Both the position numbers and the translations under genes were made by a program. Positions 2,522-21,826 of a stretch of 64,000 nt of DNA are shown piece by piece (position 1 is the stretch's first letter; each line of letters opens with the position of its first letter). Below the pieces are notes generated by a model, which had not been told where the DNA came from, made no database searches, and saw only the letters and a list, made by a program, of their open reading frames with translations. Origin of the DNA: Desulfosoma sp. (GTDB taxonomy: Bacteria; Desulfobacterota; Syntrophobacteria; Syntrophobacterales; DSM-9756); contig JBBFKY010000001.1 in assembly GCA_037481875.1 (NCBI GenBank), positions 411,782 to 475,781 of the forward strand, in the 5' to 3' direction.

Positions 2522-5500
2522 CTACTGACGCTGCTTCCAGCCGCTTTTTTCCACAGGAGGCGGCAGATCCACTTTGAGCCGGTGAATGACCCCGTTGCTC
2601 GTCTGAATAAAAAGATATTCACCGGAGGAATCCATCACAGGTCGGCTGGGCATGCCTTCCCCCAACTTCAACACGTAGCCGGTGTTGCTTATTTGAGCGT
2701 ACTCACCTTCGCCCAACTGATCAGGTGTCTTGTTGACTTTGGTAAAGCCGGAGTTCTTGAACGGGTCGAAATTCATGGGGCGGCACATGTAATCCACCGC
2801 GTACAGATAAGCGTCGCCTCCTGCCGCACAGGGATCTTCTTTTGGAACAAAGCTTGTAAAGAAAACCACACCCCCTGCGATCAAAGCCGAATCCACCACC
2901 CGCTCCCCTGGAATGCTTAGGTCCTTAACGCACGTCCAGCAGGAATTGTTACATGAGGTTTCACAACAGTCTGGGCTTCCATCACTTTTCACCCACGCGC
3001 AGTTGCTGCTGAAGCTTGAAGAAGCACACAGGAATTGTGCGGAGACACTGAGGCCGTTGTAAGAAAAACCTGCTGGAAAAACAGAGGGTCGCGTCGCATT
3101 ATCCCGAATGGCGTAAAAAGACATGGTTGCCGTGTCGGTGCGATCGTCCAGTCCGCCGACCACGTTGTCGTATTTACCCGTGCCGCAATACACCCAAGGG
3201 TTCTTGTAGGGATCTAGTGTGACGACGGGCATGACAGTGATGGGTTGACGCCCGGATCGGTAGATATTTGTAGTTGTAGGCGCGGTTTTCGACTTTCTAA
3301 CGGTCAAATGAATACCTGGTTGTGAAGCAAAGAGGTTGAACTTAAGGGTGTAGAAATTGCCGTTGAGATCGCCGAAGGCGATATAGTCCACCTGGCCGTC
3401 TTGGGCCGCTTGGCCTTGGGAGTTCCACAGGTCAACGGCTACCGGATCTCCTATGGCATAAGGAATCGTGTTGGAACCGTTGGTGACCTTCGGCCAATTT
3501 GTTCCCCATGTATTGGTAATTTTAGGCCAAAGGTACTGAAAAATGTTCACCCCTTTTTCAATGTCGATCGCCAACAGGTTAGGCCTCAGGAAGGCCAATT
3601 TCTGATTGTCAGTCAGGGATCCAGGAAGATCCACCTCGGGCTTGAATGTATGCGGGCTGGCTCCAAGAAAAGCAAACCAGCCACTTAGATCATTGGAACC
3701 ACGGCACGACGAAGAGAGGGAAGGTGCCCCGCCTTCTAATGGTTCGACTCTCTCTTTTGCCATGAAACACACCGCCTCTGGAGTATTCAGATATCCCACG
3801 TAGGGAACCGTCCAGGATACAGGCATGGTGGCCACTTGAGAGTAGGTGGCATTGTCCAAAAAAGGCATGTCCGCTGTGGAATTATCTATAACGAGGTTCC
3901 TAAGAACAGCGTATTCCCAAAGAACTTTGGGTTTATCAGGATCCGTCACATCAACGGCAAAATAGACGTCGCCCCCTCCCCGTTCTCCTCCAAGAAGAAC
4001 CGTTCGCCATTCGCGGGTTCCGTTACCATCATGGTCGATAAAAACATCCCAGGCCACAGGAGAAAGATCCACCATGGTGCGATGGGCACATGCCGAAGGA
4101 TGACCGTAGTCGGGTTTCGCCAAATGTTTAAGTTCTGGAAGTAGGTTACTGGGTACGTACGCCCAGAGTTCCTTGCCTATTGAACTTCCATGAGTGCTAT
4201 TTTTCGGATCATAGACCCAGGTAGAGGTGTTATTATCCCAAACACCCACAACGAAGGCGTGAAGCATGCCATCGTTAGCGCCCACATAAACCATTTTTTT
4301 TCTGGTGGTGTGTTTTTGGCGAAAGCAATAAAAGCACTTCTTGGAACAGTTATCCATTTCGGTGCCACTGCACGTGCAAGAACAATCGCCGGCGATGTGC
4401 GGATCCACAGAGCTAACGGATGGAGGGCCGACAACGACGGGTGTGGAATACACAATGTCCCCCAAAGACCATCCTTTGCGATCTCGAGCGACTGCAGACC
4501 ACGAATCGTTCCATTCACCGCGCACCCATTGAACCAAAGCTTTGGCATCTTCTTCCGTTTGGGAGCCATTCTTGTCGAAATCGATGGTGTTTGCCAAACT
4601 GGTTTTAATAACCGACCATTTGGACGGCAGCGAGGAATAAAAAGGAGCATTGCAAGAGGAGGTGCCATTGTCAAGTCGTAGCATGGTCCCTTTGTCCATG
4701 GTAAAGATGCAGCGGTTTTTCGGATCTGGGATGCTCAATATTTTTCCGGCATCCCAGCAATATCCGTCCACAAAACCTGGATCGGAGCAAAATTTTCCTT
4801 TGTTTAGAGACTTTTGGAAACTATAAAGGCTGCCACGACACTGACCGAGATACCACTGACAACCGGAATAGCTATTACATGTTGCGTTATCTGTGAAATC
4901 CTTACAACCGTCATAAGGCCAATAAGCTTCCAGATGGCCTTTCCATGCATAGATGTTGGGGTTGTCTTCATAAGCGGTAAAGGCGCCTCGAATAACCAGA
5001 TCTTGCCCAAGCACTTCCTGAGTCACTGTCGCCACGGCTCCAGCACTCCCGGCCTTGGTAAGAATCGCTAACATTGCCTTTTCCAGTTTTTTTTCGAGTT
5101 CCAGAGGATTGTCCACAAAGAAGTAGTTATCCGGCACACCATTTTGGTCTTTGTCCCATTCATTCGTGTTATTATCATCGGGCATACGGTTTCCGTTAAG
5201 ATCATCAAATCCACCCCATTTGGCCGCGTACCAGAGGGGATTTTTAAGTATTTGCGAGGCGTTTCCTGTCACGGTGAACTCTTTTTCCCAGGTGAGAGGC
5301 ATACCAGCCACAGCAGCCGGTGTGTTGCTGTCCGCCGAGTTCGGAACATCTTTATCTTTTACGACCAGATAAAGACCGTCTCGGTCTGTTCCTGAAATGA
5401 CGAAGCCCAAAACTTGATCAATGCTGCCGGCGGCGTAATCAGACGTGAGCTTAACCTTCACCTTATTCGGCACGACAGCTTCAATTTCATAAAAAACAAT

Positions 5501-7579
5501 AGCGTCCATATCGTGATCGGCACCCTGCTCGACGTCTTCAAAATTCACGCGAAACTTCGCTTTGATCAAGTTGGACGCGTTGTCGTACGTGGCGTTGTCC
5601 ACATAAAAATCGACAATCTGGTTGGAGGGGCAATACGCACCTGAGGTGCAGTTATCGATTTCCAGAACGTCATTGGGTTTTGTCAGCTTACATTTGGCGG
5701 CACACGCCGTGTAGACGTCATGGGTTCCGCTGACGCTTTTGCCGACGGGAACCAGCTGCACATGTTGATTGCCTACTTTGACTCGAATATCAGGAATAGG
5801 AGATGACATCGCCACCACATAAGTGGTCACCTTAGGTATTCCCTCTTTTTCTTGGATGTATTCCTTACCGTAGTAGGCTACAGCAGCTGAGTAAAAGCTT
5901 CCTTGCTTCGTGGGCTCTTCCGGGCAAAGTCCTCGAACAGAGCTGAGGTTGGCCAGGGTTTTGGACGAGCAAATAAAGTCGTAGATATCGCCGCTTCGGC
6001 CTATAAAGAATTTGTTGTTATTGAGCTTCTCCTGAGTTCCAATGACGTTGGCGAGAGACGCTACGTTCAAATCCGTCAGATCCCCTGAAAAGCTACCGAA
6101 GTAAGTCCCAGGTATCTGGTCGGAATCGTAACTCGGATTGATATCGCTTAGAACGAGAAGGTTTGGATTGGTGCAATCAGGGAAAAGGTCAAATGGGTGT
6201 AAATTGTTGTTTCCTTTCTTGATATACCAATCCGGCTTGGGAAGATTCAGGCCGGCGTCGTTATTTTCACTATATTCAAAAGCGCTTGTTGGACTTCCCT
6301 TTCCGGTTATGAAGCGGAAAGCTTCATACATCATTTCAGCCACGGGGTTTCCCCACATGCGGCATTGGCTTTCCGCAAGAGGAGCACCCGTGATCCAGCC
6401 GCAGGTTCCACCGTCCTGGTCCTGGTAAGAAAAGTCAGAATAGCGAAATCCCACGGGACTCATGCGGTCAAGAGTGAGTATAATGTTTCCTTGCACGTTT
6501 TCAGAAGTCTGAAAAATTCCGGACTGCGAGTTGATTTCGTCCATGACCGTCCAGATGTTTTTTCTAAGAACCCCGCCGCTCAAGTTTTTCCTGTAGGATC
6601 CCGTGAGAAGGCCCATGTAGAGTGGGCTTCGAAACACACAGAGTCCATCGTTGGCTCCGCAGTCGTTGTCTGTCTGACAGGCTTTATAGGTCTTGGAACA
6701 CATTTTGGATCCGTCCCCTTCGCCGTACTTCTGAAGAAGACCGACAGGCTTAGGCGTGGTCCCACCCCCGGGATAGAGTTTACAGTAGTTCTTCTCTTCC
6801 CCCTTATTCCAATCTGTACTGCACACCTGAACTCGAACGAAATAGTCCTGGATGTCGTTTCTCGTACCGACAGGTCCACGCCGATAACCTGAAGGGGTTT
6901 CGGGGCCGCTACAGACGGCACGCTCCGTCGTGGCCCATTCCCATATTCGATGTTCGTCATTCAAAGCGACACGAATTTTGTGAGCCTCCCCCTTTGCTGT
7001 GCTGGTCACGCAAAACAAATGGCGCTTTCCTGGGGAAGGTGGATCGAACGGTGTCAACTTCTTAGTGTCACTGCCGCTGTATTCTTTACCCCAGCTATGC
7101 GCATCTTGAGGTATATAAGCGCCTTCGAGAACGGTTTCACTAGCGCTATCGGTAGAACGATGTCCCCCGTAGAGCACCCGCCGCAGCACATCTATACGGG
7201 ACATGGAAAGCCAATTGAGGAAATTCCCGCTCCATTCGTTCGTCCCTCCACAATATTTTGTGCTCGTATATCGAGTAGGGACAAACCTGGCTTGTCCTGT
7301 TGTTTCGTACCTGTAGCATTTATAGGGATCAAAATACCCGAAATAATCTAAATCTATAGAGTGTTTGTAGCCGACATCCAATTTCCCGTCACCATCTAAA
7401 TCTTGAGCATCGTTGTAGGCTTCATAGTATAATTTATGATCTCTTTCCATAACCATCATCACCATGGGATTGGCACCGGCGGAAACAAAAGGAGGAGGGT
7501 CGCAAGAGGGCGTATAAGCCTGAGCCGGTGACAAAATCAAAAAAGAGAGAAAGACTAAAAAAAACGTGTTTCTTACCAT
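2522..7579 (-). CDS. PilY1-family pilus tip protein, giant (copy A)
   Basis: A 1685-residue exported protein with a signal peptide ending near 'SPAQA' (residue about 21). An acidic calcium-type loop, DLDGDGKLD, lies at residues 60-68. The middle has 'SDINPSYDSDQIPG', typical of this PilY1 subgroup, and more Asp/Asn loops near residues 795-820. The C-terminal part has PilC/PilY1 beta-propeller repeats: 'YVGANDGMLHAF', 'ELWAYVPSNLLPELKHL', 'VYFAVDVTDPDKPKVLWEY'. No von Willebrand A metal site (DxSxS) is evident; that position reads 'VMERDHKLYY'. Cys-rich patches lie near residues 1060-1090 and 1535-1550. I count about 21 N-x-S/T sequons, 11 with Asp before the Asn. By family: calcium-dependent adhesin and regulator of pilus extension. 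It is inverted relative to set 1 minor pilins. Confidence 0.88.
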   Translation of the reverse strand: MVRNTFFLVFLSFLILSPAQAYTPSCDPPPFVSAGANPMVMMVMERDHKLYYEAYNDAQDLDGDGKLDVGYKHSIDLDYFGYFDPYKCYRYETTGQARFVPTRYTSTKYCGGTNEWSGNFLNWLSMSRIDVLRRVLYGGHRSTDSASETVLEGAYIPQDAHSWGKEYSGSDTKKLTPFDPPSPGKRHLFCVTSTAKGEAHKIRVALNDEHRIWEWATTERAVCSGPETPSGYRRGPVGTRNDIQDYFVRVQVCSTDWNKGEEKNYCKLYPGGGTTPKPVGLLQKYGEGDGSKMCSKTYKACQTDNDCGANDGLCVFRSPLYMGLLTGSYRKNLSGGVLRKNIWTVMDEINSQSGIFQTSENVQGNIILTLDRMSPVGFRYSDFSYQDQDGGTCGWITGAPLAESQCRMWGNPVAEMMYEAFRFITGKGSPTSAFEYSENNDAGLNLPKPDWYIKKGNNNLHPFDLFPDCTNPNLLVLSDINPSYDSDQIPGTYFGSFSGDLTDLNVASLANVIGTQEKLNNNKFFIGRSGDIYDFICSSKTLANLSSVRGLCPEEPTKQGSFYSAAVAYYGKEYIQEKEGIPKVTTYVVAMSSPIPDIRVKVGNQHVQLVPVGKSVSGTHDVYTACAAKCKLTKPNDVLEIDNCTSGAYCPSNQIVDFYVDNATYDNASNLIKAKFRVNFEDVEQGADHDMDAIVFYEIEAVVPNKVKVKLTSDYAAGSIDQVLGFVISGTDRDGLYLVVKDKDVPNSADSNTPAAVAGMPLTWEKEFTVTGNASQILKNPLWYAAKWGGFDDLNGNRMPDDNNTNEWDKDQNGVPDNYFFVDNPLELEKKLEKAMLAILTKAGSAGAVATVTQEVLGQDLVIRGAFTAYEDNPNIYAWKGHLEAYWPYDGCKDFTDNATCNSYSGCQWYLGQCRGSLYSFQKSLNKGKFCSDPGFVDGYCWDAGKILSIPDPKNRCIFTMDKGTMLRLDNGTSSCNAPFYSSLPSKWSVIKTSLANTIDFDKNGSQTEEDAKALVQWVRGEWNDSWSAVARDRKGWSLGDIVYSTPVVVGPPSVSSVDPHIAGDCSCTCSGTEMDNCSKKCFYCFRQKHTTRKKMVYVGANDGMLHAFVVGVWDNNTSTWVYDPKNSTHGSSIGKELWAYVPSNLLPELKHLAKPDYGHPSACAHRTMVDLSPVAWDVFIDHDGNGTREWRTVLLGGERGGGDVYFAVDVTDPDKPKVLWEYAVLRNLVIDNSTADMPFLDNATYSQVATMPVSWTVPYVGYLNTPEAVCFMAKERVEPLEGGAPSLSSSCRGSNDLSGWFAFLGASPHTFKPEVDLPGSLTDNQKLAFLRPNLLAIDIEKGVNIFQYLWPKITNTWGTNWPKVTNGSNTIPYAIGDPVAVDLWNSQGQAAQDGQVDYIAFGDLNGNFYTLKFNLFASQPGIHLTVRKSKTAPTTTNIYRSGRQPITVMPVVTLDPYKNPWVYCGTGKYDNVVGGLDDRTDTATMSFYAIRDNATRPSVFPAGFSYNGLSVSAQFLCASSSFSSNCAWVKSDGSPDCCETSCNNSCWTCVKDLSIPGERVVDSALIAGGVVFFTSFVPKEDPCAAGGDAYLYAVDYMCRPMNFDPFKNSGFTKVNKTPDQLGEGEYAQISNTGYVLKLGEGMPSRPVMDSSGEYLFIQTSNGVIHRLKVDLPPPVEKSGWKQRQ

Positions 7580-7814: not shown

Positions 7815-7842
7815 CCAAAGCTTGTGGGTTTCTAAGCTTTGG
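7815..7842. repeat. Perfect 9-bp inverted repeat upstream of pilE
   Basis: CCAAAGCTT at 7815-7823 and AAGCTTTGG at 7834-7842 flank a 10-base loop. There is no T-run after it, so it is not an ordinary terminator. It could be an RNA stem in the pilE leader or an operator. Confidence 0.5.
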
Positions 7843-7911
7843 AGTGTGCCATGCGATCACCGAAAGGCCTTTATCGCCGATTCGGCCGAAAGTCTCCTTC
7901 GGGTGAACCGA

Positions 7912-7928
7912 GGCAAAGGAAGTGCCCA
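7912..7928 (-). promoter_or_regulatory. Candidate sigma-54 promoter toward pilY1 (A)
   Basis: Read on the minus strand: GGGCAC, 5 bases, TTGCC. GG and GC are separated by exactly 10 bases, as in minus 24/minus 12 promoters, but the first consensus T is G. It would start transcription near 7900, about 320 bases before the pilY1 start codon, which is a long leader. It is the weakest-placed of the sigma-54 candidates here. Confidence 0.35.
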
Positions 7929-7940
7929 AAGAAGGCTCTC

Positions 7941-8351
7941 ATGTCGATGCGGCAGAACGAGGGTTTCACTTTGGTGGAACTGATGGTCACGGTGGCCGTT
8001 GTGGCTGTTTTGGCTGCCGTGGCTGTGCCGGCTTATGTGAACCATGTGAGGCGCTCGCAGCAGGCGCAGGCGGTGGAGGCTCTTTTGCGGGCGCGCCTGG
8101 AGATGGAGGCGTATTGGGCCGATCATCATCAATATCCGGACAGGTTGCAGCTTCTTCCATCTTTCGAAAGCGCGACTCAAGGGAAATACATCCTGCAGCT
8201 GCAAATCTTTGCTGACGCTCAGCGTTATCGTATCGAGGCCGTGCGGCCTGACCTAGGGGACAAGCTTCATATCGCCGATAACGAAACAACCCCGGTGGTG
8301 GATACTCCGAAGGCCCTGGGCTGGTCTCTTTTTCACTGGATTTTTGACTGA
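7941..8351 (+). CDS. Type IV minor pilin, PilE-like prepilin
   Basis: A 136-residue protein from the ATG at 7941, which has GAAGG upstream and gives a short typical leader (MSMRQNEG) before FTLVELMVTVAVVAVLAAVAV. Upstream in-frame ATGs at 7839 and 7851 would add about 30 basic residues and are less likely. After the helix, 'EALLRARLEMEAYWADHHQYP' is the common PilE-family pattern. A D-N-E-T sequon lies near the C-terminus. First gene of set 2. It could be a major-pilin relative, but the absence of the usual C-terminal Cys pair and its position in a minor-pilin operon favour a minor pilin. Confidence 0.78.
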   Translation: MSMRQNEGFTLVELMVTVAVVAVLAAVAVPAYVNHVRRSQQAQAVEALLRARLEMEAYWADHHQYPDRLQLLPSFESATQGKYILQLQIFADAQRYRIEAVRPDLGDKLHIADNETTPVVDTPKALGWSLFHWIFD

Positions 8352-8371: not shown

Positions 8372-9004
8372 GTGGCTGGAAAAGGGTGCGGCGCCGCAAC
8401 ATGCCATCGAGGGATGACCCTGGTGGAACTTATGGTCGTCCTCGGCCTCATCGCCTTCCTCATGGCTCTTCTATCGATCCGCATTCATAGCGCTTCTTAC
8501 CGGCTGAAATCGGCCGTTTTCAGTCTTCGCTCCATCCTGCAGCAAGCGCGCCTGGAAGCCGTGAGATGCAATAAAAATGTCTACCTGGATTTCGATGCCG
8601 ACGACAACGGCGTGTTAGACAATGTCGTTCTATGGGTCTGTATGGATTCGGGATCGGGATCTCCTTCCTTTCAAAAGGATCGAGACATCGTTCTGGTTTC
8701 AAAAGCTCTTCTGAGGCCACCAGGATCCTTGAGCCACCGCCCGACCTTGGGAGCGGCACCGCCTTCTGTGGGAGGTCCCACCACGGGAGCGCCTCGAGAA
8801 GGGGGAACCATTCCCGAAGACGGTGTCAGTTTTTCCGGAAACCGCATCAATTTCAACCCTGACGGCACGTCCTCGTCGGGATCCGTCTATATGCATGTAC
8901 CCAAAAATCCCGAGGCGGGAACCTATGCTCTTGTGATGAATAACAGCGGCAGGGCTTATTTGAGATTTTTCCCCAAAGGAGGCCCGGCCTGGGAAGACCG
9001 ATAA
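8372..9004 (+). CDS. Minor pseudopilin, FimT/GspH-like
   Basis: A 210-residue protein. The GTG start at 8372 has GGAGG at 8361-8365. A 14-residue leader ending in Gly precedes MTLVELMVVLGLIAFLMALL, giving Glu at mature +5. The following helix 'LRSILQQARLEAV' is characteristic of GspH/FimT. The globular domain has a Gly/Pro-rich central loop and 'RINFNPDGTSSSG', equivalent to the GspH strand motif seen in the first gene of the window. It is the FimT counterpart in set 2, 20 bases after pilE and 1 base before the next gene. Confidence 0.8.
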   Translation: MAGKGCGAATCHRGMTLVELMVVLGLIAFLMALLSIRIHSASYRLKSAVFSLRSILQQARLEAVRCNKNVYLDFDADDNGVLDNVVLWVCMDSGSGSPSFQKDRDIVLVSKALLRPPGSLSHRPTLGAAPPSVGGPTTGAPREGGTIPEDGVSFSGNRINFNPDGTSSSGSVYMHVPKNPEAGTYALVMNNSGRAYLRFFPKGGPAWEDR

Positions 9005-9005
9005 G

Positions 9006-10193
9006 ATGGCCTGGAAAGAGTGGGTCTCACTGGAAGCACATCGGCAAAAGATAGTGTCCGATGAAAGAGGACAAAGTCCCAGGCTGCAAGGTATGACCTT
9101 GGTAGAGCTTTTGGTGGCCGTGACGGTGACTTCTGTGGTGCTTGTTTTCATCTACGGCGGTTTTTCGGCGCACCGGAGACTTTACGGTCAGGAACAGCAG
9201 ATCCTGGAGCTGCAGCAAAACCTACGACTTGCGCTGGATATGGTCGTTCAGGTGGTGCACCAGGCAGGGTACTGGAGGTGTGTGGAGGCTCGAGCTGTTC
9301 GCATAGGTGCGCAAGGCGTGAAAAGCACACTCAAAAGTTCCGAGGGCCTATTTCACACCCAGGCGGTTATGGGATTCAACAACGTCACCGCTACCACAGA
9401 TCCTTTCGTTGATAAACAGACTCGAGAAGGTACCGATATATTGGGATACAGCCTGATCGACCCCGCCTTTGACGGACCGCTCGCTCATGACCAAGTCCTT
9501 CCTAGAGACCCGCTTCGGCTAGTCAAGAACAAGGCGACCGGAAGCCTCAAAAAAGGCCAGATCGTCTTCTTGACTGATTGTCGCCAAAGTGCTCTTTTTC
9601 AGATCACTAACGTCTTTACCGACGGGGATACCCTGTTACAGCATGATCCCGACGTCTTGAGTCCCGGAAATACCACACGGTGTCTTCGATGTGATGACGG
9701 AGGCACCACATGCGTCGGCGACGTCGAGTGTTCGGCAGCGGGAACCGGCTTTCGAAGAGGTATTTCGTGGCTGCATCCCGTGAAGGTGGGTTTTTTTCGA
9801 GTGAGCAAATCGGGTGACTTCCAGTGGATTGAAGGAGGTCCTGATACCACGGGGAACTATGTCTTTTCCACCCCACGAACCCTTGCTGAAAACGTGGAAG
9901 ATTTTCAGGTGGAATGGGGCGTGGATTCCAGCCCCGTGCCGGACGGTTTGGTGGATGCGTGGGTTTCGGCCGATGCCATACCAGAGACGTTTTCGGGAAG
10001 CGGCCTGCGGGATTGGGAGAGAGTCCATGCCGTTCGGTGTCACATTCTCGGGCGAACCCGAAGACCCTTTAAAGGCTACACGGATACAACCGTTTATGCT
10101 TTTGCGGATCGAAAGGCTTCCGGGGCGGCCTCGGACGCCTATCGTCGTCTGCACATGATGAAAACCATAGGAATTCGCAATGCCATGCCGTGA
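9006..10193 (+). CDS. Minor pilin, PilW-like prepilin
   Basis: A 395-residue protein. A 29-residue leader ends in Gly before MTLVELLVAVTVTSVVLVFI, and the helix continues as 'LQQNLRLALDMVVQVVHQAGYW', which matches the PilW family (including the conserved AGYW-type turn). A cluster of four Cys lies near residues 225-240. N-V-T, N-T-T sequons occur but no D-N-x-S/T. It overlaps the following pilV-like gene by 14 bases. Gene order here (fimT-pilW-pilV-pilX) differs from set 1 (fimT-pilV-pilW-pilX). Confidence 0.8.
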   Translation: MAWKEWVSLEAHRQKIVSDERGQSPRLQGMTLVELLVAVTVTSVVLVFIYGGFSAHRRLYGQEQQILELQQNLRLALDMVVQVVHQAGYWRCVEARAVRIGAQGVKSTLKSSEGLFHTQAVMGFNNVTATTDPFVDKQTREGTDILGYSLIDPAFDGPLAHDQVLPRDPLRLVKNKATGSLKKGQIVFLTDCRQSALFQITNVFTDGDTLLQHDPDVLSPGNTTRCLRCDDGGTTCVGDVECSAAGTGFRRGISWLHPVKVGFFRVSKSGDFQWIEGGPDTTGNYVFSTPRTLAENVEDFQVEWGVDSSPVPDGLVDAWVSADAIPETFSGSGLRDWERVHAVRCHILGRTRRPFKGYTDTTVYAFADRKASGAASDAYRRLHMMKTIGIRNAMP

Positions 10194-10647
10194 CGGATGG
10201 AAGTCGAGAAGGCCGTGGGGATATACCTTGGTGGAAGTGTTGGTGGCCGTTGTGGTGGCGGTTTTTGTTTTTGTGGCTTTTTTCGCTCTGCAAACTCTCG
10301 GGGTTCGAACCCGAGTTCATGCTCGAATGTCTTCCACGGCCCTAAATGCCGCAACGGATTTTCTCGAACAAGTGTCAATTTCAAGTGAAGACCGAATCGG
10401 TGTGGATGGGGAAATCCTGGCTGATTCAGGATTCGTGGAGGAAGCGGTGATGACGGGTTCCGGAATCCCTTTGGCCAGGCGATGGGAAGTGCTAAGAGGT
10501 GTTCCCGGACCCCATCTGATGACGGTTCGGGTCATGGTGTGCTGGAAGGAACCTCAAAAGCCGCTCCCGTCAGCGGCCACGTGCGATTTTAACCGACCAT
10601 CGGCGCCCCATGTGAACCTGGAAAGTGTGTTCTATAGGCCAAGATAA
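10180..10647 (+). CDS. Minor pilin, PilV-like prepilin
   Basis: A 155-residue protein. The 14-residue basic leader ends in Gly before YTLVEVLVAVVVAVFVFVAFFAL; Glu is at mature +5. The helix is followed by a short domain with 'TDFLEQVS', like PilV/GspI proteins. The start codon overlaps the end of pilW, so translation is probably coupled. I find no N-x-S/T sequon in it, in contrast to its set 1 counterpart. Confidence 0.75.
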   Translation: MPCRDGWKSRRPWGYTLVEVLVAVVVAVFVFVAFFALQTLGVRTRVHARMSSTALNAATDFLEQVSISSEDRIGVDGEILADSGFVEEAVMTGSGIPLARRWEVLRGVPGPHLMTVRVMVCWKEPQKPLPSAATCDFNRPSAPHVNLESVFYRPR

Positions 10648-10698
10648 AACGCGGGGAACAAGCCTAAGAGGAAGCGTGCTTGGAGATACTTTAATAAC

Positions 10699-11538
10699 AT
10701 GATCTTTGAAGGGGCTGACACGTCGGGCCGTCGCGACGGGATTCGATGGCTGTGGGCCGAACATGTCGATCCGCTCCCGCGGGGGTTGGTGATGGTGGGC
10801 GGAAAAATGGATGTGCCCTTAAGGGTTTCGGGGAAGGGGGTCGTGCAATACAGAAAAAAGTCTTCACAAGTGCCGGAGCGTCTTCCAGGGGTGTTTGGAA
10901 GCTGGGATTGGCGGATCTGGAAGCGAAAGGATGGCATGGCCCTCACCTTGGTCTTGGTGATCATTGCGGCTTTGGCTGTCTTGACGGTGGGGCTGGCTCT
11001 GGATCAGGCCATTGAAATGCGTCTTGCCGGAAACCGTAAAGCGGCCGAAACAGCCTTTCGCAACGCTGAATCAGGGCTGGCCGTGGCCCAGGAAAGGTTA
11101 GCTCGATGGTTTGCCACCGATCCCATGAACCTGCAGCGTCAACGGACGGGAAGCGCCACGCTTCCGGATTGGGATTTCCTCTTTCTAAACGCTACACCCT
11201 ACACAGGGTCAAACAACCGAAAAGACCTTTACGATGAAGTGAAGTTGGACCTGGGATGGGATCATCGGTTCAAGGTCTTTGCCAGAATTCCGGAAGACCG
11301 AAAGGACGATGCTTTTCAGGATCTGTTCGGTGAAAACACGCGCCTGGTGCTTCGAAGTGTCGGGTTCGGGCCGGCCGGATCCCAACAGGAAACCGAAATG
11401 ATGGTGGAAGCCGTCGCGGAACCTTCTCCGGCCTTTGCCTATGCGCAGGAGGGATTGGGTTCCGTGCCGAGTCATGTGAACATGAGGGACAAGAACGCCG
11501 TGAGGGCCACGGGTCAACCGCTGGCTGTGGTGCCCTGA
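10699..11538 (+). CDS. Minor pilin, PilX-like
   Basis: Up to 279 residues. The diagnostic part is 'DGMALTLVLVIIAALAVL' followed by 'AGNRKAAETAFRNAESG', the PilX N-terminal helix with its conserved Ala-Glu-Ser-Gly turn. Around 78 residues precede the hydrophobic helix if the ATG at 10699 is used. That is long, and starts at 10792 or 10807 are possible; none has a clear ribosome site. The C-terminal domain is about 170 residues. Last pilin gene of set 2, upstream of the second pilY1. Confidence 0.72.
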   Translation: MIFEGADTSGRRDGIRWLWAEHVDPLPRGLVMVGGKMDVPLRVSGKGVVQYRKKSSQVPERLPGVFGSWDWRIWKRKDGMALTLVLVIIAALAVLTVGLALDQAIEMRLAGNRKAAETAFRNAESGLAVAQERLARWFATDPMNLQRQRTGSATLPDWDFLFLNATPYTGSNNRKDLYDEVKLDLGWDHRFKVFARIPEDRKDDAFQDLFGENTRLVLRSVGFGPAGSQQETEMMVEAVAEPSPAFAYAQEGLGSVPSHVNMRDKNAVRATGQPLAVVP

Positions 11539-11857
11539 AAGCAGTGCCAAGGTTCCTTGAAGCTTGTTCGAGAAAGCATTTCTTTTTGGGAGCGCGGGAG
11601 TCGCGCCCGCATGGAAAGCGGGCCGAAGACCCGCGCCGCCACGAAAACAAAGGCTTTGGGATTTAGGAGCACGGCGTATCGTACCCTTGCGCCTTAGGCG
11701 AAATGGCTCATTCTTAGTTCTCGAATAAGGTCGTAGAAGCGTGTCCGAGAATTGAAAAAGAACCTCTTTGGGCAGGGCCATGTCAAGGTGTGGGGGCGAG
11801 GCGGCGCCTCGCCCTTACAAACCTGAAAATGTGTTTTTTGCCGGAGAAGACATTTCA
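11539..11857. other. Intergenic region between pilX and pilY1 (B)
   Basis: 319 bases without a convincing gene. It is GC-rich between 11585 and 11640, with several short complementary G/C blocks, and carries a near-perfect palindrome at 11794-11814. The frame of the following pilY1 stays open back to 11768, but the better ribosome site is at 11842-11848, just before the ATG at 11858. I see no clear promoter. Confidence 0.5.
11794..11814. repeat. GC-rich palindrome, dispersed repeat copy 1
   Basis: Arms GGGCGAGGCG (11794-11803) and CGCCTCGCCC (11805-11814) around one base. Related palindromes occur at 15735-15764 (degenerate) and 18105-18127, all between genes in this pilus region, so this looks like a small dispersed hairpin element rather than a gene-specific signal. 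Confidence 0.65.
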
Positions 11858-14800
11858 ATGAAAAGCACCTCAGAGTACGGTCAAAAAAGAAAACGGAGAA
11901 AGCCGAAGGCTTGGCTAGGCCTGATGACGGCAGCCTTTTTGACCAGTGTCCTCTGGGGATCTCCTGCGGCCTCGCTCAATGTTTGTGAACCGTCACGGTC
12001 CGTCCACTACGAAGGATCCTGGCAAAGCGAAGATTTCAGTGTGCTGGATCCATCCGTTGTTATTGACGACAAAAGCGGGCATCTCGTGCTGCATGCAGGG
12101 GGGCATGACGAATCTGTGACGCGTTTTGTCACAGCCATGCCCCAGGAAGTGCGCGTGACCTTCATCTTTCGGGGGTCCGAAGCTTCAGGGCATCATCTAG
12201 GCTATTTCCTCAGGTCTTCAGCGGAAAAGAAAGGCTATGTGAAAAGTGATGGAACTTTGGATCGATCGGCTTTTGTGAAGGCCATAGACTTTACCGACAC
12301 AGCATCCTATGACAAGGAAACATTTCATTACCTCTGGACTTGTCTTCGAGACGATAACCATAACGGTATTCTGGACAAACCCTACGGGGCAGGGTGCTTG
12401 CGATCCTTTTCGGAAGCGTCGGCAAGCGGCGTTGATTTTGCCGAGACGGAAGAAATCCTCGGCGCTATAGATGATGGCACGGGGCTGCCTTTCGTCCCCG
12501 ATGGGGACGGCCGTTTGACCGTTCGCGATATGACCAAAAGCCTGGGTATCATTGGAGAAGGGCAAGAAATTATCTTTTTTCTTGTGCCTCAAGGCCGTTT
12601 CCAGGATACCTATTTGACCGAAGCTTCTTGGAATTCAGATGTTTACAGGGGAAAGGAGCCTTGCACAACCACTTTCGCCTCGGGGGCGACGCCCAAGAAA
12701 TACCAGGTGGGTCTAACGGCTCATGATAATGGAACCTGCGCCGCCGTGTCCCCATGGCTTCCTCAACAGGCATTGGCACGGCTTCGACAAAGCTTCGGCC
12801 TTGAATTTGATCCAGATCATGAAATAGCCCTTTCATTACAAACGGGAAAAAAATTTCCTCATGCGCTTGTGACTTCAACCCCTGATGTTCCCGGTGTTCG
12901 CATTCTAGCGTGGGAAGAAGATGTGGAAGGGGGCGATACGGACCATAACGATCTGGTTTTTGCCGTGGCCATCAAAGCAGTGGGTCGTGTAGTTTCGAAG
13001 GATATAAGTTCCACAGATCCTTTGCAGGAAAAGCCTGTAATTACGGCTGTGGATCTTGAAGTGCGAGACCGCAGAGCCCCATGCGAAGGTTTGGACACAG
13101 GGTTTTTTCTTGATTCCGGTTCCTTTTCCAATGGGAATGTTAGCTATAGTGTCAGCCTGGACAACGGGACGACATGGATTCCCGTGGATCGGTGGGAGGA
13201 AGTTCAAGACCACGAAGACGGTTCTCAAACTCGAAAAGCGCATCTGGACCTGATTAGTCTCGGCCGTGCGGGTCGAACCCTGAGATGGAAAGCCCTCTTG
13301 GAAACGGTCAACACGCGATGTCTTTCACCGGCAATCATGGATGTGCGATTGGACTTTACGGCTTCAGACCAAGGGACTTTTTCTCGATCCGATCCGGTGG
13401 TGCTCGGAAATGCTCTTTATTCCGCAGGATTGGAACTTCCATCGAAATCGACGCTCCCTGAGGCTTCTTTTCGTGGTCACCTTTTCTCCTATCTTATCTA
13501 CGATCCATCAAATCCGGCCACACCCCTTTTTCAGCCTCTGTGGGATGCAGGCCAAGCCCTGGCCGAACGATCACTTCAGGCAGACCCTCGAACCATTGGT
13601 ACCGCTGTCGCGGAAGCCTGTTCGGTTCGAGAAAACGTTGCAATTGGCGATGGGACCACTCGGCGTTTTCAGGGAACGCTGCAACACAAAGATGTCCTTT
13701 CCGGTACCATGCTTTTTCGGTCTCTATCTTCGTCAGGAATTCCTATGGTTTTGCGTGATAATGGAATCGGCGTTTTGACAGGGGACGGCTCTGGAAGGCT
13801 CCACCGCTCTGAAGGCGCTTATACTTTGGAGTTTCTTTTTCCACCCTGCAAGGGATGTCCTGTGACGGCAGAATATGCTTATGCCATTTCGACATCCTCC
13901 TTTCGATCGTTTTCGGAAACAACCATCACGGATGTTATGTTGGGTTTGAGCGATGCTGTGATACACGGAGAAGGGTTCCATTGGGATCTCAACAGAGACG
14001 CTCGGTATGACTCCGAAGATCGACGGCATCTTATACGATGGGTTCTTGGGTTTGACAAGGGCACCCATGAAAGACCTTGGCCTCTGAACGGAATCGATCA
14101 CAGCACGCCCGCCGTCGTAGGCCCTCCGGGGTTGCCTCCGTGGTATTTCGGCACCCAAACCTCCGAAGAGGAACGAGAAGCCTATGATCATTTTCGGCAA
14201 TCGGAAACGATGGCCCATCGACCAACCATCGCTTACGCAGGAAGTCTCGGGGGCATGATCCATGCCTTTCATGCCGGATCCTATCAACACGGGGATGATC
14301 CGCGAACCACTGTCAAAGAAAATCGGGGCTACTTTTTGCCGGGAGAATACGGAGATGGAAGCGAGCTGTGGGCCTATATTCCTTCAAGCCATCTTTCACG
14401 GCTCAAATCCCTGCTGAAACCTGAACCGTGGCTGTATCCGCCTGTGGTCAATGCCTCGCCCTGTGTTCAAGACATTGCGGTTCGAACTGAAACGGGTGGG
14501 ACTTTCCGGACCGTGCTTGTTTCAGCTCAGGGTACCGGAGGCGACACGGTTCTGGCCCTGGATGTGACCGATCCGCAAAAGCCCTCTTTTCTATGGCACT
14601 ACAGTGACCCGGCGCTGTACCGAAGCGGGGCTGCTCCGGCCATGGCCAAGATCGGTCGGCTTCAGGATGCAGGCTCGCCGGTCTGGGTGGTTTTCGTGAG
14701 TTCGGGACAAACCGATTTGTCCGAATCACCTTCCCTGTTTCTTTTCGATGCCGCTTCGGGAAAGCTTCTCAGAAAGATTTTCCTGGATTTGGGGGCGTCC

Positions 14801-15625
14801 AACAGAGGCGCCGTTTTGAGCGGAAGCGCTGCAGCGGTGGATACCGACGGAAACGGGTATGTGGATCGACTTTATGTGGCGGACAGCAAAGGTCATGTGG
14901 TTCGTCTAGACTTTCCCGATCGTGCCGATATGGCCTGGGACCCGGCAAAAATTCGCGTGAGCCTTTTTGTGAAGGTGTCCTCGTCCATCTATGCGACACC
15001 GGCGGTTTATATCGCCCATACCTACAAGCCGGATGGTGGCATCGATCAAGCGCACGTGAAGATCATGTTTGGAATTGGGGATGATCCAGCACGAAGGGAC
15101 AACCCTCGTGTCCCCACGGCCTATAAATTTTATGTCTTCGACGATTCGTGCCGCATGGATTGGACGGCCGGCGTCCTTCGAGATAACAACGGTCAGATCT
15201 GCTCTTCTCAGGGCATGAAATCAGAAGCCGAGGCCGAGTGGGTATGGAATCTTCCGGCAGGTCATCGAATCTGGGCGGAAGCGGTTGCAGCGGCCGGTAT
15301 GGTGTATTTCGGCACGGCGGTGACCGAGACGACAGATCCATGTTCTCCACCTCAAGATGATGAGAGTAAAGGCGGTAAAGTGTATGCGGTGGATCTTTCG
15401 GCTTTGGATTTTCAAAAGGAACCTAGGCTGATGGCGGAGACAGGCGGAAATGTCACGGCACTTTTTGTGGAAGATCAGCACCTTTATGCCAGAGTACACC
15501 TCAGGGATGCGGGATCACGCGTGCAGGTGGTGGGCGAAGGCGTCTTTAACAACGAAACCCTTTTAGGAACAAGCTATGTGACAAAGGCGGTCAAAGGTTC
15601 CTGGCGTCGCATTTTAGAAAAATAA
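11858..15625 (+). CDS. PilY1-family pilus tip protein (copy B)
   Basis: About 1255 residues. The ATG at 11858 follows GGAGAAG and opens a signal peptide (basic residues, 'WLGLMTAAFLTSVLWG', cleavage near 'SPAAS'). The N-terminal third is unlike copy A. It has two pieces resembling DUF4114-type domains, ending in 'EEDVEGGDTDHNDLVFAV', whose DTDHND loop looks like a metal site. A dockerin-like loop (DLNRDARYDSED) lies near residue 710. The C-terminal third is a PilY1 beta-propeller: 'AYAGSLGGMIHAFHAG', 'ELWAYIPSSHLSRLKSL', 'TVLALDVTDPQKPSFLWHY', plus a calcium-type loop DTDGNGYVD. Six N-x-S/T sequons, two of them D-N-G-T. Role by family: tip adhesin or pilus-extension regulator for set 2. Confidence 0.85.
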   Translation: MKSTSEYGQKRKRRKPKAWLGLMTAAFLTSVLWGSPAASLNVCEPSRSVHYEGSWQSEDFSVLDPSVVIDDKSGHLVLHAGGHDESVTRFVTAMPQEVRVTFIFRGSEASGHHLGYFLRSSAEKKGYVKSDGTLDRSAFVKAIDFTDTASYDKETFHYLWTCLRDDNHNGILDKPYGAGCLRSFSEASASGVDFAETEEILGAIDDGTGLPFVPDGDGRLTVRDMTKSLGIIGEGQEIIFFLVPQGRFQDTYLTEASWNSDVYRGKEPCTTTFASGATPKKYQVGLTAHDNGTCAAVSPWLPQQALARLRQSFGLEFDPDHEIALSLQTGKKFPHALVTSTPDVPGVRILAWEEDVEGGDTDHNDLVFAVAIKAVGRVVSKDISSTDPLQEKPVITAVDLEVRDRRAPCEGLDTGFFLDSGSFSNGNVSYSVSLDNGTTWIPVDRWEEVQDHEDGSQTRKAHLDLISLGRAGRTLRWKALLETVNTRCLSPAIMDVRLDFTASDQGTFSRSDPVVLGNALYSAGLELPSKSTLPEASFRGHLFSYLIYDPSNPATPLFQPLWDAGQALAERSLQADPRTIGTAVAEACSVRENVAIGDGTTRRFQGTLQHKDVLSGTMLFRSLSSSGIPMVLRDNGIGVLTGDGSGRLHRSEGAYTLEFLFPPCKGCPVTAEYAYAISTSSFRSFSETTITDVMLGLSDAVIHGEGFHWDLNRDARYDSEDRRHLIRWVLGFDKGTHERPWPLNGIDHSTPAVVGPPGLPPWYFGTQTSEEEREAYDHFRQSETMAHRPTIAYAGSLGGMIHAFHAGSYQHGDDPRTTVKENRGYFLPGEYGDGSELWAYIPSSHLSRLKSLLKPEPWLYPPVVNASPCVQDIAVRTETGGTFRTVLVSAQGTGGDTVLALDVTDPQKPSFLWHYSDPALYRSGAAPAMAKIGRLQDAGSPVWVVFVSSGQTDLSESPSLFLFDAASGKLLRKIFLDLGASNRGAVLSGSAAAVDTDGNGYVDRLYVADSKGHVVRLDFPDRADMAWDPAKIRVSLFVKVSSSIYATPAVYIAHTYKPDGGIDQAHVKIMFGIGDDPARRDNPRVPTAYKFYVFDDSCRMDWTAGVLRDNNGQICSSQGMKSEAEAEWVWNLPAGHRIWAEAVAAAGMVYFGTAVTETTDPCSPPQDDESKGGKVYAVDLSALDFQKEPRLMAETGGNVTALFVEDQHLYARVHLRDAGSRVQVVGEGVFNNETLLGTSYVTKAVKGSWRRILEK

Positions 15626-15734
15626 AGAGGAACAACGCTTTTGGGATCCCCAAGAGTGATCTTCATGACCTTGTTTCCCGCCGTGAGTCTGTCCGAGGCA
15701 TTCCATCGATTGTTGCATCCCATGCTGTTTCAAA

Positions 15735-15764
15735 GTAGGGGGCGAGGCGCCGTTTCGACTCCAC
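15735..15764. repeat. Degenerate copy of the GC-rich palindrome
   Basis: The stretch begins with GTAGGGGGCGAGGCGCCG, like the left arm of the copies at 11794 and 18105, but the right arm has decayed. It lies in the 182-base gap between the convergent ends of pilY1 (B) and the oligosaccharyltransferase gene. Confidence 0.45.
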
Positions 15765-15807
15765 AAGTTTAAAACCGTGTTTTTTGGAAGCTTGGGCTTT
15801 TACCAGC

Positions 15808-17970
15808 TCATGATGCGGGCGGGACACGAGGCCCACCGAGCGAAGTGCTGCTTTCGGGAAAGCTGCCTTGAGGGTTTGGTAACACTTCCCAGAGTTGGTA
15901 CACAAAGGGCCGATGCGCGATGCGCCGAAACCGGCCGCTTGAAGGCGAAGCATTGACGAAAAACAGGCGATGAAACAAGGATTCTCCGATGGGTGCTCCT
16001 TGCATCAGAGCTCCCATACCGATGGTTCGGTGCACATCTAGGTGTGGTCCTTCGCCTTGACGATAGTGAAGAAGTGTTCGAGTGCCGTCGGGGCCGATGA
16101 GGCCGAGGGAGGCCAGAGGGATTTTGCGATCGCTGAATTGCAGTTCACCTCGCTGAAGAAAAACGCCCGTGGCGCCCGGAGCCGAGATGGAAGAATCATT
16201 CCAAAGTGCTACGGGGTAGAGGGGGCGATAGGCCGGGTGGACGCCGTCCTTTTTGGCCGGATCCCAGGTGCCGAACCAATACCACCAATACGCGGTGTTC
16301 AGGAGCAGTTGATCCAGGAAAAGATAAACCGGACGGGGCGGGTCGGGGTAGAAAAAGGCATGCCAGGAGTTTTCGTGCGGAATGTGGTGAAGTTCCAGTT
16401 CTCGAGCCTTTTCTTCACAACCGTCGGGGCCGGCTGAGAGCACGGCTTTGAGGGCTTTAAGCCCTTGAGCTGCAGAAAGATTGTTGGCCTGGAAAAAGGC
16501 TCGCATTCCCGAAAGCCCTCGAGTGCTGAAAAAGATCATGAAATCCGCGGCAAAATGATCATCCGTACTTGCCAATGGAATCGCCAGGGGCACCACCAGA
16601 TCTCCACCGTGGATTTCGCCGTCGGCCAAAGTTCCACGCCTTGCCCAGTATTGAATGTGATACCCATGATCCCACCAGGCCCAAAGGATGGCGTTTTCCG
16701 GAGTGCGTCGAGCAGCTTCCGTCATTCCTTGAACCACGGGAGCGCTTTCCGAAGGCCAGCGCACGGTCTGCACCACCTTGAAAAAAGCCGGGAGAAGCAA
16801 AAGGATACCTGCGGCCAAGGGACCGACCAGAGCCAGGCGGGAAGAACCAAGCCGATGCTGGAGTCGGTCCACCAGATTTCCCAGCCCAAGACCCACAAGA
16901 GGAGCGGCGTAGACGCACAGGCGTTGCGCAAGGAAGATCCCTCCAGAACCCAAAAGCAATAAAGGCGTTAAAAAAAACAGGGATCGTGGACGGCGAACGA
17001 AGAGCCACAAAAGCCCGATGGCTCCGATTCCTAAAACGGCTTCATGGCCTGCCGTCGTGCGGCCGAATTCTTGAAAAGTCGGCCGCACCTGTTCGCTTAT
17101 GGAAAGACCGATGTTGGGAAAATCTCCAGGGGCCTGTTTCATCAACATGTAGGAAAGCTGTCCCCAGGCTCGTCTTGACGCTTCCAGAAAAGGTGTTGTG
17201 CCCTTGAAGATCAGGACCGCCAAGATGACAGTCAAAACGAGGCCCAGAATGATCCACAGGGATTTTCGGTCCCCGGCACGAAATCTTAAGAAAAGAGCAG
17301 TGCCCATGGGGAATGCGGCGAGAAGAAAGGGCGTTTGAGGACTTTGATCCCACCACCAGGTGTGCAGCAACACGGCTGCAAGAGCCCCTGCAAGCCAAAA
17401 ACCTGCACGGTGTTTCGCCTGCGTCCAGGCCACGAAACACGCGACGACAATCAAGGGGAGACCGACGTTGAGACTGTCTGTGTCCAATCGTCCCAGGTTT
17501 GTGCGATGGACCAAAAAGGGAGAAAGCACGAAAAAGCCGCAAGCGATCACGGCACCTAAAGGGCCCATGAACAACCGTGCCAAAGGATACAGGCTCAAGG
17601 CCGAAACAGCCCCTAAGACGGCTGGTAACACCAAGGCAATCCAAGGAATAGGGATTCCGGTCACGTGGTGAAGTCCCGCCGTAAGGACGCTCAGAAGGGG
17701 GGCCGGTCGAGGTCGTTCCACACCGTCAGGGACAGCGCGGAAAAGATCTCGATTTTCGTAAGTGCCTTCAACAAGGTCTCGAGCTAGGCGCATGTAGTAG
17801 GGCGCATCGAAGGTGGTGGGAAGAGGCTCTCCATTCACAAAACATCGTTCCGGGTACTGCTTCCATGCCCCGTAAGGTGCAAACCTTACCCAAAAACCTA
17901 CAGCGATCACGGCCAAAAACCCTGCCATGATCGCAAGCCGTTCCCGGTGCCATAGGTTTTGAAAGCTCAT
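15808..17970 (-). CDS. STT3/PglB-type oligosaccharyltransferase
   Basis: A 720-residue multispanning membrane protein. Conserved STT3 sites are visible: FDAPYYMRLA (acidic residue in the first external loop, about residue 55); the metal-binding D-x-D as RLDTDSLN (163-165); the fifth-loop S-x-S-E motif as SISE (290-293); and the WWDxG sequon-recognition motif as WWDHG (432-436). A soluble periplasmic C-terminal domain follows. By family it moves a lipid-linked glycan onto Asn of N-x-S/T sequons in exported proteins. The ATG at 17970 starts right before the first hydrophobic segment; an upstream ATG at 18051 lacks a ribosome site. It lies downstream of dsbC and ends convergent to pilY1 (B). No glycan-synthesis genes are in the window. 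Confidence 0.9.
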   Translation of the reverse strand: MSFQNLWHRERLAIMAGFLAVIAVGFWVRFAPYGAWKQYPERCFVNGEPLPTTFDAPYYMRLARDLVEGTYENRDLFRAVPDGVERPRPAPLLSVLTAGLHHVTGIPIPWIALVLPAVLGAVSALSLYPLARLFMGPLGAVIACGFFVLSPFLVHRTNLGRLDTDSLNVGLPLIVVACFVAWTQAKHRAGFWLAGALAAVLLHTWWWDQSPQTPFLLAAFPMGTALFLRFRAGDRKSLWIILGLVLTVILAVLIFKGTTPFLEASRRAWGQLSYMLMKQAPGDFPNIGLSISEQVRPTFQEFGRTTAGHEAVLGIGAIGLLWLFVRRPRSLFFLTPLLLLGSGGIFLAQRLCVYAAPLVGLGLGNLVDRLQHRLGSSRLALVGPLAAGILLLLPAFFKVVQTVRWPSESAPVVQGMTEAARRTPENAILWAWWDHGYHIQYWARRGTLADGEIHGGDLVVPLAIPLASTDDHFAADFMIFFSTRGLSGMRAFFQANNLSAAQGLKALKAVLSAGPDGCEEKARELELHHIPHENSWHAFFYPDPPRPVYLFLDQLLLNTAYWWYWFGTWDPAKKDGVHPAYRPLYPVALWNDSSISAPGATGVFLQRGELQFSDRKIPLASLGLIGPDGTRTLLHYRQGEGPHLDVHRTIGMGALMQGAPIGESLFHRLFFVNASPSSGRFRRIAHRPFVYQLWEVLPNPQGSFPESSTSLGGPRVPPAS

Positions 17971-18104
17971 TGCAAACCTACCCTTGGAGCTTGTCTGACG
18001 TTGAGAAAAGGTGATGCTTTTCTTGGAAGCGCTGACCTGCGGCCTAATCATGATACGGGGGAGACGCCCGCGTTCCCAGGGAAAAGCCTAGTTTCGAGTT
18101 TGTG

Positions 18105-18127
18105 GGGGCGAGGCGACGCCTCACCCC
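18105..18127. repeat. GC-rich palindrome, dispersed repeat copy
   Basis: GGGGCGAGGCG (18105-18115) and CGCCTCACCCC (18117-18127) around one base, with a single mismatched pair. It sits between dsbC and the oligosaccharyltransferase gene and closely resembles the copy at 11794-11814. Confidence 0.6.
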
Positions 18128-18192
18128 AACCTCCTCATGGATTAGGGGCAATGGTGTTTTGAGTTCTCGAACATGTTCCTGGAAGCCATGGG

Positions 18193-18963
18193 TCATGGCT
18201 TTTTCAACTTGTTTTCCAGGCTGGAGCGATCCATGACACCCGAGCGAAACGTTCCGTCCGGAAAAATGTAGGTGGGGGTTCCCCCGATGCCATGGGCTTG
18301 CATGAACTTCATGACGGCCTCTATCTTGTCTGTTCCCTCCTGGCATTGATTGTCCGACTTATAGTGTGCCTTAAATTCTTCATGACCTTTCTTGTCACAA
18401 ATCAAAGCGATGCACGATTCTCGAGCTCCGGGATGCATGGGGAGAGGGTAAAGAACATAGCGAACTTCAAGGATACCCTCAGAAGCCATGGCTTCCAACG
18501 TGGTTTCCGCTTGTTTGCAATAGGGGCATTGAGGATCCGTCACAAAGTACACTTTTTGAGAGGCTTTCGGGGAACCCAAGGTAAAAGCCACCAGACTTTC
18601 CAGGGTTTGCATGTCCTTGGCGGTGAGACGGTTCAGTTCTTCCAAAGTGGCTTGGGTCAGATTTTTTTTGTCCTGGGTGTCAAGAATTTGTCCAAATATG
18701 AGGTATCGGCCCGAGGTATCCGTGTAAAGGAGTTGATTCTTGTCACCGACCACCACATGAACCTGGCAGACGTTAGGCAGAGGGGAGGGGTCGACATTTT
18801 TGACAATAACATTGCGTCCGGCCAAGGATTCTGAAACCTTTTGCTGGACGAGGGCAAGTTCCGGGCATGAAGCGGCAAAAGGTTTCATGGTCCAAAGAAA
18901 CCCGAAACCGAAAAGTATGCCAATACTGGAGAAAAAAAACACCCAGCTTCTTCTGTGGTTCAT
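18193..18963 (-). CDS. DsbC/DsbG-like thiol:disulfide isomerase
   Basis: A 256-residue exported protein. The ATG at 18963 follows AAGGAGC and opens a signal peptide or anchor (hydrophobic stretch to about residue 28, then 'AASCPE', which could alternatively be a lipid-type Cys). The N-terminal part fits a DsbC-type dimerisation domain (strand 'GRYLIFGQILD'). The thioredoxin-fold catalytic motif is CPYC at residues 146-149, after 'VYFVTDPQ', with the cis-proline as GTPTYIFPDG near 229. By family it reshuffles wrong disulfides in the periplasm. It precedes the oligosaccharyltransferase and lies near two Cys-rich PilY1 genes, its likely clients. A sigma-54-like promoter is upstream. Confidence 0.88.
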   Translation of the reverse strand: MNHRRSWVFFFSSIGILFGFGFLWTMKPFAASCPELALVQQKVSESLAGRNVIVKNVDPSPLPNVCQVHVVVGDKNQLLYTDTSGRYLIFGQILDTQDKKNLTQATLEELNRLTAKDMQTLESLVAFTLGSPKASQKVYFVTDPQCPYCKQAETTLEAMASEGILEVRYVLYPLPMHPGARESCIALICDKKGHEEFKAHYKSDNQCQEGTDKIEAVMKFMQAHGIGGTPTYIFPDGTFRSGVMDRSSLENKLKKP

Positions 18964-21822: not shown

Positions 21823-21826
21823 GGAT

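Follow-up and report, generated by a model that had tools for sequence, protein, structure and literature searches.

An STT3-type oligosaccharyltransferase gene among type IV pilus genes of Desulfosoma and the probable use of D-N-x-T as its sequon

Introduction

Experimental knowledge of protein N-glycosylation in bacteria comes from few lineages. In the textbook form of the extended sequon, an acidic residue lies at position -2 of the acceptor asparagine; in the Campylobacter lari enzyme (ClPglB), the Asp at -2 is read by residue R331. Glycosylation of bacterial type IV pili, for its part, is known as O-linked, and PilY1 serves as an adhesin and sensor at the pilus tip. The subject of this report is a 64,000-nucleotide stretch of DNA from the sulfate reducer Desulfosoma sp. 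(Desulfobacterota; assembly GCA_037481875.1, contig JBBFKY010000001.1; genome G000, C1:411782-475781, from a genome of 3.4 Mb), hereafter called the window, where a gene for an STT3/PglB-type oligosaccharyltransferase stands among type IV pilus genes whose products are rich in D-N-x-S/T sequons. A periplasmic oligosaccharyltransferase very probably N-glycosylates type IV pilus proteins at D-N-x-T.

Earlier work with three Desulfovibrio PglBs (D. gigas, D. desulfuricans and D. vulgaris; Ollis et al. 2015) showed that they glycosylate a reporter protein at its RDNAT site and that the D. gigas enzyme (DgPglB) does not use RQNAT (PMC4894442). The same enzymes were described as relaxed, since DgPglB accepts most residues at -2 and a native site in HmcA reads TANGT (PMC4894442). 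The RDNAT and RQNAT results support an effect of Asp at -1 within the phylum and, by the same token, lower the novelty of what is proposed here. The literature searched, which covered few subscription journals, yielded no description of an N-glycosylated PilY1 or of bacterial type IV pili that are N-glycosylated.

The oligosaccharyltransferase

The enzyme is encoded by one gene of the window:

15808..18051, minus strand: STT3/PglB-type oligosaccharyltransferase, assigned by Pfam, motifs and predicted fold; the likely start at 17970 gives 720 amino acids.

The protein matches the STT3 N-terminal domain (PF02516; 3e-18, 66.9 bits against a cut-off of 24.5) and the PglB/AglB core domain (PF21436; 1e-8, 35.7 bits against a cut-off of 23). 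Its AlphaFold2 model is confident (pLDDT 89.5, pTM 0.88) and combines a multi-helix membrane part with a periplasmic domain, and a fold search with this model returned PglB structures as the top PDB matches (6gxc, 5ogl and 3rce; TM 0.71-0.74), the best being C. lari PglB (6gxc/5ogl; TM 0.74, E 4e-27). A preliminary description of the window, made from its letters alone, had pointed to the motifs DTD, SISE and WWDHG in a protein at 15808-17970. All three are present and, upon alignment to C. lari PglB, correspond to DxD, T/S-I-x-E and WWDxG, while TTFD supplies a fourth, with the catalytic Asp of the first external loop; across 25 relatives these catalytic motifs are invariant or nearly so. The reading frame itself extends to 18051, and the end at 17970 in that description marks a plausible internal ATG (MSFQNL...). 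By Pfam, motifs and predicted fold, the protein is a genuine member of the STT3/PglB/AglB family, with glycan transfer to Asn as its predicted activity.

In an STT3 tree, the genus falls among the Desulfobacterota STT3s, separate from the STT3s of G006 and G011, two genomes of the same order that group together, and from a distant set. The long STT3s of other Desulfobacterota families (e.g., f45) align with the window protein in part (32-37% over ~190 amino acids). At or beside the position of ClPglB R331, no conserved counterpart of this Arg occurs in the STT3 clade; the window protein has one Arg that is one column off, and most relatives are without it.

Pilus proteins and their D-N-x-S/T sites

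The window holds two sets of pilus genes. The set 1 minor pilins, at 8-2500, lie outside the interval 2522-18963 on which the preliminary description centred. The features concerned are as follows:

8..430, plus strand: set 1 minor pilin, GspH/FimT-like (PF12019), with one site, DDNKTE.
348..842, plus strand: set 1 minor pilin, PilV-like (PF07963), with one site, ADNKTY; the true start is internal, ahead of the N-methylation motif.
763..1911, plus strand: set 1 minor pilin, PilW-like (PF07963), with the sites GDNSSD, PDNKTD and LDNKTG.
1925..2500, plus strand: set 1 minor pilin, PilX-like (by position and sequence, without a Pfam match), with one site, VDNQTK.
2522..7579, minus strand: PilY1 copy A, pilus-tip protein (PF05567, 3e-15).
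3845..3886, minus strand: paired sites IDNSTA...LDNATY of PilY1 A (Asn 1233 and 1243), by alignment and motif count.
5573..5599, minus strand: paired sites VDNATYDNASN of PilY1 A (Asn 662 and 667), by alignment and motif count.
5645..5656, minus strand: D-N-C-T site of PilY1 A (Asn 643), by motif count.
7839..8351, plus strand: PilE-like pilin (pilin N-terminal motif), with one site, ADNETT.
8372..11538, plus strand: four set 2 minor pilin genes, without D-N-x-S/T.
11768..15625, plus strand: PilY1 copy B, set 2 tip protein (PF05567, 9e-6, below the gathering score), with the sites HDNGTC and LDNGTT.

One locus thus holds the PilY1 beta-propeller domain (PF05567) and minor pilins that bear a class III signal (PF07963, PF12019), and genes resembling PilB, PilC and PilA lie a short way upstream of the window; this marks the products as components of a PilY1/minor pilin tip complex. 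PilY1 A carries 11 D-N-x-S/T sites (Asn at residues 643, 662, 667, 803, 898, 971, 1077, 1116, 1233, 1243 and 1494), RDNAT among its sequences, where shuffled sequences lead one to expect ~1.0; none of 300 shuffles reached this number, and shuffling within blocks of 20 residues gave the same expectation and a maximum of 5 in 2000 trials. Sequons of the general form N-x-S/T number 22 against 13.4 expected. The AlphaFold2 model of the C-terminal part of PilY1 is of low confidence (pLDDT 62). Among the pilins, the PilW-like protein alone has 3 sites against 0.14 expected, and the five set 1 pilins (one site each in the GspH-, PilV-, PilX- and PilE-like proteins besides the three in PilW) have 7 against 0.29. 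The PilE-like site is kept in both congeners, as SDNETT and SDNETH, and the major pilin PilA, encoded just upstream of the window, carries IDNATF. PilY1 B has 2 sites against 0.3 expected, with 3 and 1 in two congeners. These counts bear out the preliminary description, which had put about 21 sequons in PilY1 A, 11 of them after Asp, had estimated by hand that one or two would arise by chance, and had noted D-N-K-T or a close form in each of the four set 1 minor pilins, three times in PilW, and far fewer sites in set 2.

The shape of the motif is clearest from the six PilY1 proteins of the genus, where D-N-x-T occurs 36 times against 1.9 expected, a 19-fold enrichment, and D-N-x-S 6 times against 2.1. 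There is no enrichment of D-N-x followed by residues other than Ser or Thr (17 against 24), of N-x-S/T without Asp, which stands at chance (43 against 44.3), of N-D-x-S/T (3 against 3.8), or of D-D-x-S/T and D-G-x-S/T; E-N-x-S/T (2.1 expected) and D-N-P-S/T do not occur. Asp at -1 without an acid at -2 is found 38 times against 3.3 expected, and Asp or Glu at -2 without Asp at -1 is in weak excess (10 against 5.3). Since a clear excess exists only where Asp, Asn and Thr/Ser come together, what is selected is a sequon of the form D-N-x-(T>>S), in which Asp occupies -1, and the strong lead of Thr over Ser fits what is expected of an N-glycosylation enzyme. The earlier suggestion of a preferred D-N-x-S/T site, unlike the D/E-x-N-x-S/T rule, thus gains support, with Thr far ahead of Ser. 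The codons of the sites vary freely, which argues for selection on the protein and not on a DNA signal.

Alignment of PilY1 A among relatives shows considerable turnover of sites. The congeners G001 and G002 (77-80% identical) carry 15 and 10 sites, many of them at different positions, whereas the family members G004 and G007 (71% identical), which lack STT3, carry none and G005, also lacking STT3, carries 2. VDNATYDNASN, for example, reads VDTVTYDAGGN in STT3-lacking relatives. In G011, where STT3 adjoins the gene, PilY1 A (41% identical) has 7 sites at other positions. Set 1 pilins follow suit: in G004, G005 and G007 they are free of sites, and in G001 and G002 most of them carry sites (the G001 PilV has none). 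This pattern is as expected if a transferable site, and not any one loop, has been selected for.

Background in the same genome

For comparison, the genome was sampled as 40 stretches (~0.8 Mb), and its proteins were divided into cytoplasmic and secreted by a simple signal-peptide rule. A sample of 119,772 amino acids, taken from 20 stretches elsewhere in the genome, contains 17 D-N-x-S/T against 15.2 expected. The pilus genes have 17 D-N-x-T against 0.6 expected, whereas the randomly sampled cytoplasmic proteins have 6 against 5.3, so that the comparison with cytoplasmic proteins that had been proposed as a check reveals no excess among those sampled. Sampled secreted proteins have 5 D-N-x-T against 1.8, with 3 of the 5 contributed by two proteins, PilA and a BACON-domain protein. 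The gene for the latter (L228:1585-3600; G000:C1 ~39.6-41.6 kb) lies directly 3' of a secretin gene.

Flagellar proteins are at chance level. The FlgE-like protein at 59725-60906 has 4 sequons, none with Asp at -1, and a QDNLST in the hook-associated protein at 38369-39757 is judged to be a chance site; one DNGS occurs in an HD-GYP protein, which, like the state of FlgE, had been noted before. A FlaG-like flagellar protein reads IDNVTA in a congener (L051:4798-5193) and VNNVTA in the window copy (21749-22225), a difference that is probably due to chance.

Co-occurrence with STT3 across genomes

PilY1 proteins were compared across 61 genomes, an STT3 being assigned to the same clade at 34% identity or more. 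Outside the genus, the 14 genomes with a same-clade STT3 have 33 D-N-x-T in PilY1 against 7.8 expected, while the 35 genomes with no STT3 match, as judged by Pfam profile in the first 98 genomes only and by similarity to the window STT3 elsewhere, have 20 against 20.0; the 9 genomes with a distant STT3 have 3 against 5.0. For N-x-T without Asp, which served as the control motif, every STT3 class is at chance, and the Mann-Whitney test gives p = 0.97. A Mann-Whitney test that includes the genus and the distant class gives p = 0.001 for genomes that are not independent of one another. Within the order, D-N-x-S/T in PilY1 A-type proteins separates the two groups fully, with 4-15 sites in the five genomes with a same-clade STT3 and 0-2 in all others. 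The co-occurrence of STT3 and D-N-x-S/T richness that had been put forward for checking is, therefore, found. When GAYAAYNNNAC is counted genome-wide against a reversed control, genomes with and without STT3 are not told apart, probably owing to the dominant effect of base composition, and the local cluster alone is informative. The same count in genome G177 is 60, against 19 in the reversed control.

Gene neighbourhood and glycan donor

STT3 is convergent with PilY1 B in the window genome and its congeners; in G011 its convergent neighbour is PilY1 A. The G006 gene lies inside the pilus locus and is codirectional with its neighbours, in the sequence PilA, TPR protein, STT3, pilin, PilY1. Within the order, then, STT3 has a place in the pilus locus of three lineages (this genus, G006 and G011). 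Elsewhere in Desulfobacterota, STT3 stands mostly away from pilus genes, often beside a GT2 gene; in 36 loci a DPM1-like GT2 gene is its immediate same-strand neighbour (e.g., L063:9914-10771). A dedicated partnership of GT2 with STT3 was considered and rejected, since the GT2 gene also occurs in relatives that lack STT3.

No pgl-type or other glycosyltransferase cluster adjoins the window STT3, whose neighbours are PilY1 B, pilins and the following gene:

18193..19029, minus strand: DsbC-like disulfide isomerase (PF10411, 5e-14), upstream of STT3 on the same strand.

The DsbC-like gene adjoins PilY1 A in the STT3-lacking G004, G005 and G007 (L070, L071 and L072). For this reason, a role as a bacterial OST3/6-like partner of STT3 was rejected as the leading idea, and a folding partner of PilY1 A is more likely: the protein probably serves the Cys-rich PilY1 A (47 Cys) and may be a PilY1-specific disulfide isomerase. 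As for a donor, the genome holds a Wzx-like flippase with glycosyltransferases, two polyprenyl-phosphate sugar transferases and a DPM1-like GT2; the presence of flippase and sugar transferase genes makes a lipid-linked donor plausible.

A TPR protein of ~796 amino acids (L093:12701-15091; G000:C1, ~1.7-4.1 kb upstream of the window start) adjoins the major pilin PilA. It has many predicted N-terminal membrane helices and a FVLDDFHS stretch, and its Pfam matches are to TPRs only; orthologues adjoin PilA in G004, G006 and G007. In these features it resembles a TMTC-type GT-C protein, and it may act as a second pilin glycosyltransferase.

Interpretation

STT3 would receive its glycan from a polyprenyl-diphosphate carrier, at the inner membrane's periplasmic face, and attach it to type IV pilus proteins at the Asn of D-N-x-T or, less often, of D-N-x-S; these proteins come past the same face before they are assembled. 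As substrates we predict the tip adhesins PilY1 and the minor pilins of set 1, to which this species would add its major pilin. Selection would have gathered sites on variable parts of the tip proteins, producing a tip with many glycans. We infer that the sites are modified, that the enzyme itself recognises Asp at -1, and that protection or tuning of the Cys-rich tip is the purpose.

Several observations weigh against this account. A lipid-linked glycan pathway as such was not identified in the genome, where only the plausible donor genes above were found, and a column scan of STT3 gave no convincing residue that would account for Asp at -1. The PilA of congener G001 has no site. Outside the genus, the comparison of same-clade STT3 with none reaches only p = 0.015 (Mann-Whitney), with genomes that are not independent, and five same-clade genomes of other families (G404, G281, G329, G181 and G089) have 0-1 D-N-x-S/T in PilY1. 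In G177, PilY1 (L192:4843-10023) has 25 N-x-S/T against 11.6 expected, an excess that is not confined to Asp at -1; the sequon rule thus varies within the clade and may differ in the G177 lineage.

STT3 could be a general periplasmic N-glycosylation enzyme that also modifies other secreted proteins, the pilus proteins being merely those of its substrates in which selection has favoured sites, and we hold this to be quite possible, if short of an even chance. It would account for the tandem sites DSDNKTDNETL that follow directly on the signal peptide, at the mature N-terminus, in the secreted BACON-domain protein, which is likely another glycoprotein, and for the many Desulfobacterota in which STT3 lies apart from pilus genes and often beside GT2; yet the sampled secreted proteins otherwise show no clear excess of D-N-x-T, and flagellar surface proteins do not go beyond chance. 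The preliminary claim of a pilus-dedicated N-glycosylation system accordingly stands in part. An STT3-type system with D-N-x-T as its preferred site on pilus proteins is upheld, from which we infer glycosylation, whereas dedication is qualified by the BACON sites, by the five unenriched same-clade genomes and by STT3s that elsewhere neighbour other genes.

It is highly improbable that the motif excess is structural, reflecting Asx turns or the calcium-binding loops of PilY1. These loops are indeed rich in Asp and Asn, and the shared site YDNxSN stands where STT3-lacking relatives have a DADGN or DAGGN loop, but the lack of enrichment in D-N-x-(not S/T), N-D-x-S/T, D-D-x-S/T and D-G-x-S/T is at odds with a structural origin, as are orthologues of the same fold that have neither STT3 nor sites and minor pilins of another fold that share the motif. 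That some other enzyme modifies the sites, be it the TMTC-like TPR membrane protein or a cytoplasmic N-glycosyltransferase (NGT), a gene type at which no search was aimed, is very unlikely: the many predicted membrane helices of the TPR protein and its place beside the major pilin would suit such a role, but its orthologues are placed alike in G004 and G007, where STT3 and D-N-x-S/T sites are both lacking, and enrichment tracks STT3. Descent from a single ancestral PilY1 that happened to be motif-rich we regard as barely credible. The three congeners are closely related and have a minority of sites in common, but most sites are not shared even inside the genus, and enrichment extends to other genera and families with G011, G006, G323, G247, G375 and G125, in G011 (the only one aligned) at other positions.

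With N-glycosylation of pilus proteins by STT3 as the preferred reading, a broader one is favoured on balance: that a Desulfobacterota STT3 clade evolved the extended sequon D-N-x-T, with the acid at -1, and was recruited into the type IV pilus locus in Syntrophobacterales; that this is the first type IV pilus of a bacterium to be N-glycosylated, with glycans dense at the tip; and that the sequon rule and the density of glycans evolve together with the enzyme, quickly enough for genomes alone to reveal them. If so, the Asp -1 sequon would offer a new specificity for glycoengineering, and N-glycosylation would be added to bacterial type IV pili and placed on PilY1, in thermophilic anaerobes. 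Evolutionary enrichment of this kind gives a genome-only way to infer the acceptor rule of an oligosaccharyltransferase.

Comparison with known systems

Campylobacter PglB (C. jejuni and C. lari) is likewise a single-subunit periplasmic GT-C oligosaccharyltransferase, with a similar fold (TM 0.74) and the same catalytic motifs. It differs in sequence (~16-17% identity to the window STT3 in structural alignment), and the features of the Campylobacter type, a conserved Arg reading -2 (R331 in ClPglB), a clear enrichment of acid at -2 and a pgl-type gene cluster, are missing from the window system, where the sequon evidence is for Asp at -1. The Desulfovibrio PglBs are also Desulfobacterota STT3 enzymes without a strict -2 rule, and their acceptor RDNAT recurs in PilY1 A, but neither an Asp -1 preference nor a link to pili was described for them (PMC4894442).

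Archaeal AglB, which acts on archaellins and type IV-like pilins, is similar as an STT3-family enzyme that modifies subunits of type IV filaments at N-x-S/T (PMC5131992). It is archaeal and uses dolichol donors, whereas the densest target here is the bacterial tip protein PilY1; no Asp -1 rule appears in the literature examined, and the search for archaeal flanking-residue preferences yielded nothing usable. Finally, the O-glycosylation of bacterial pilins by PglL, PilO/TfpO or TfpW is also a periplasmic modification of type IV pili, with a gene that sometimes lies beside its target (PMC3643930). Those enzymes, however, make O-linkages and belong to an unrelated Wzy/WaaL-like family, whereas the window pairs Asn sequons with an STT3.

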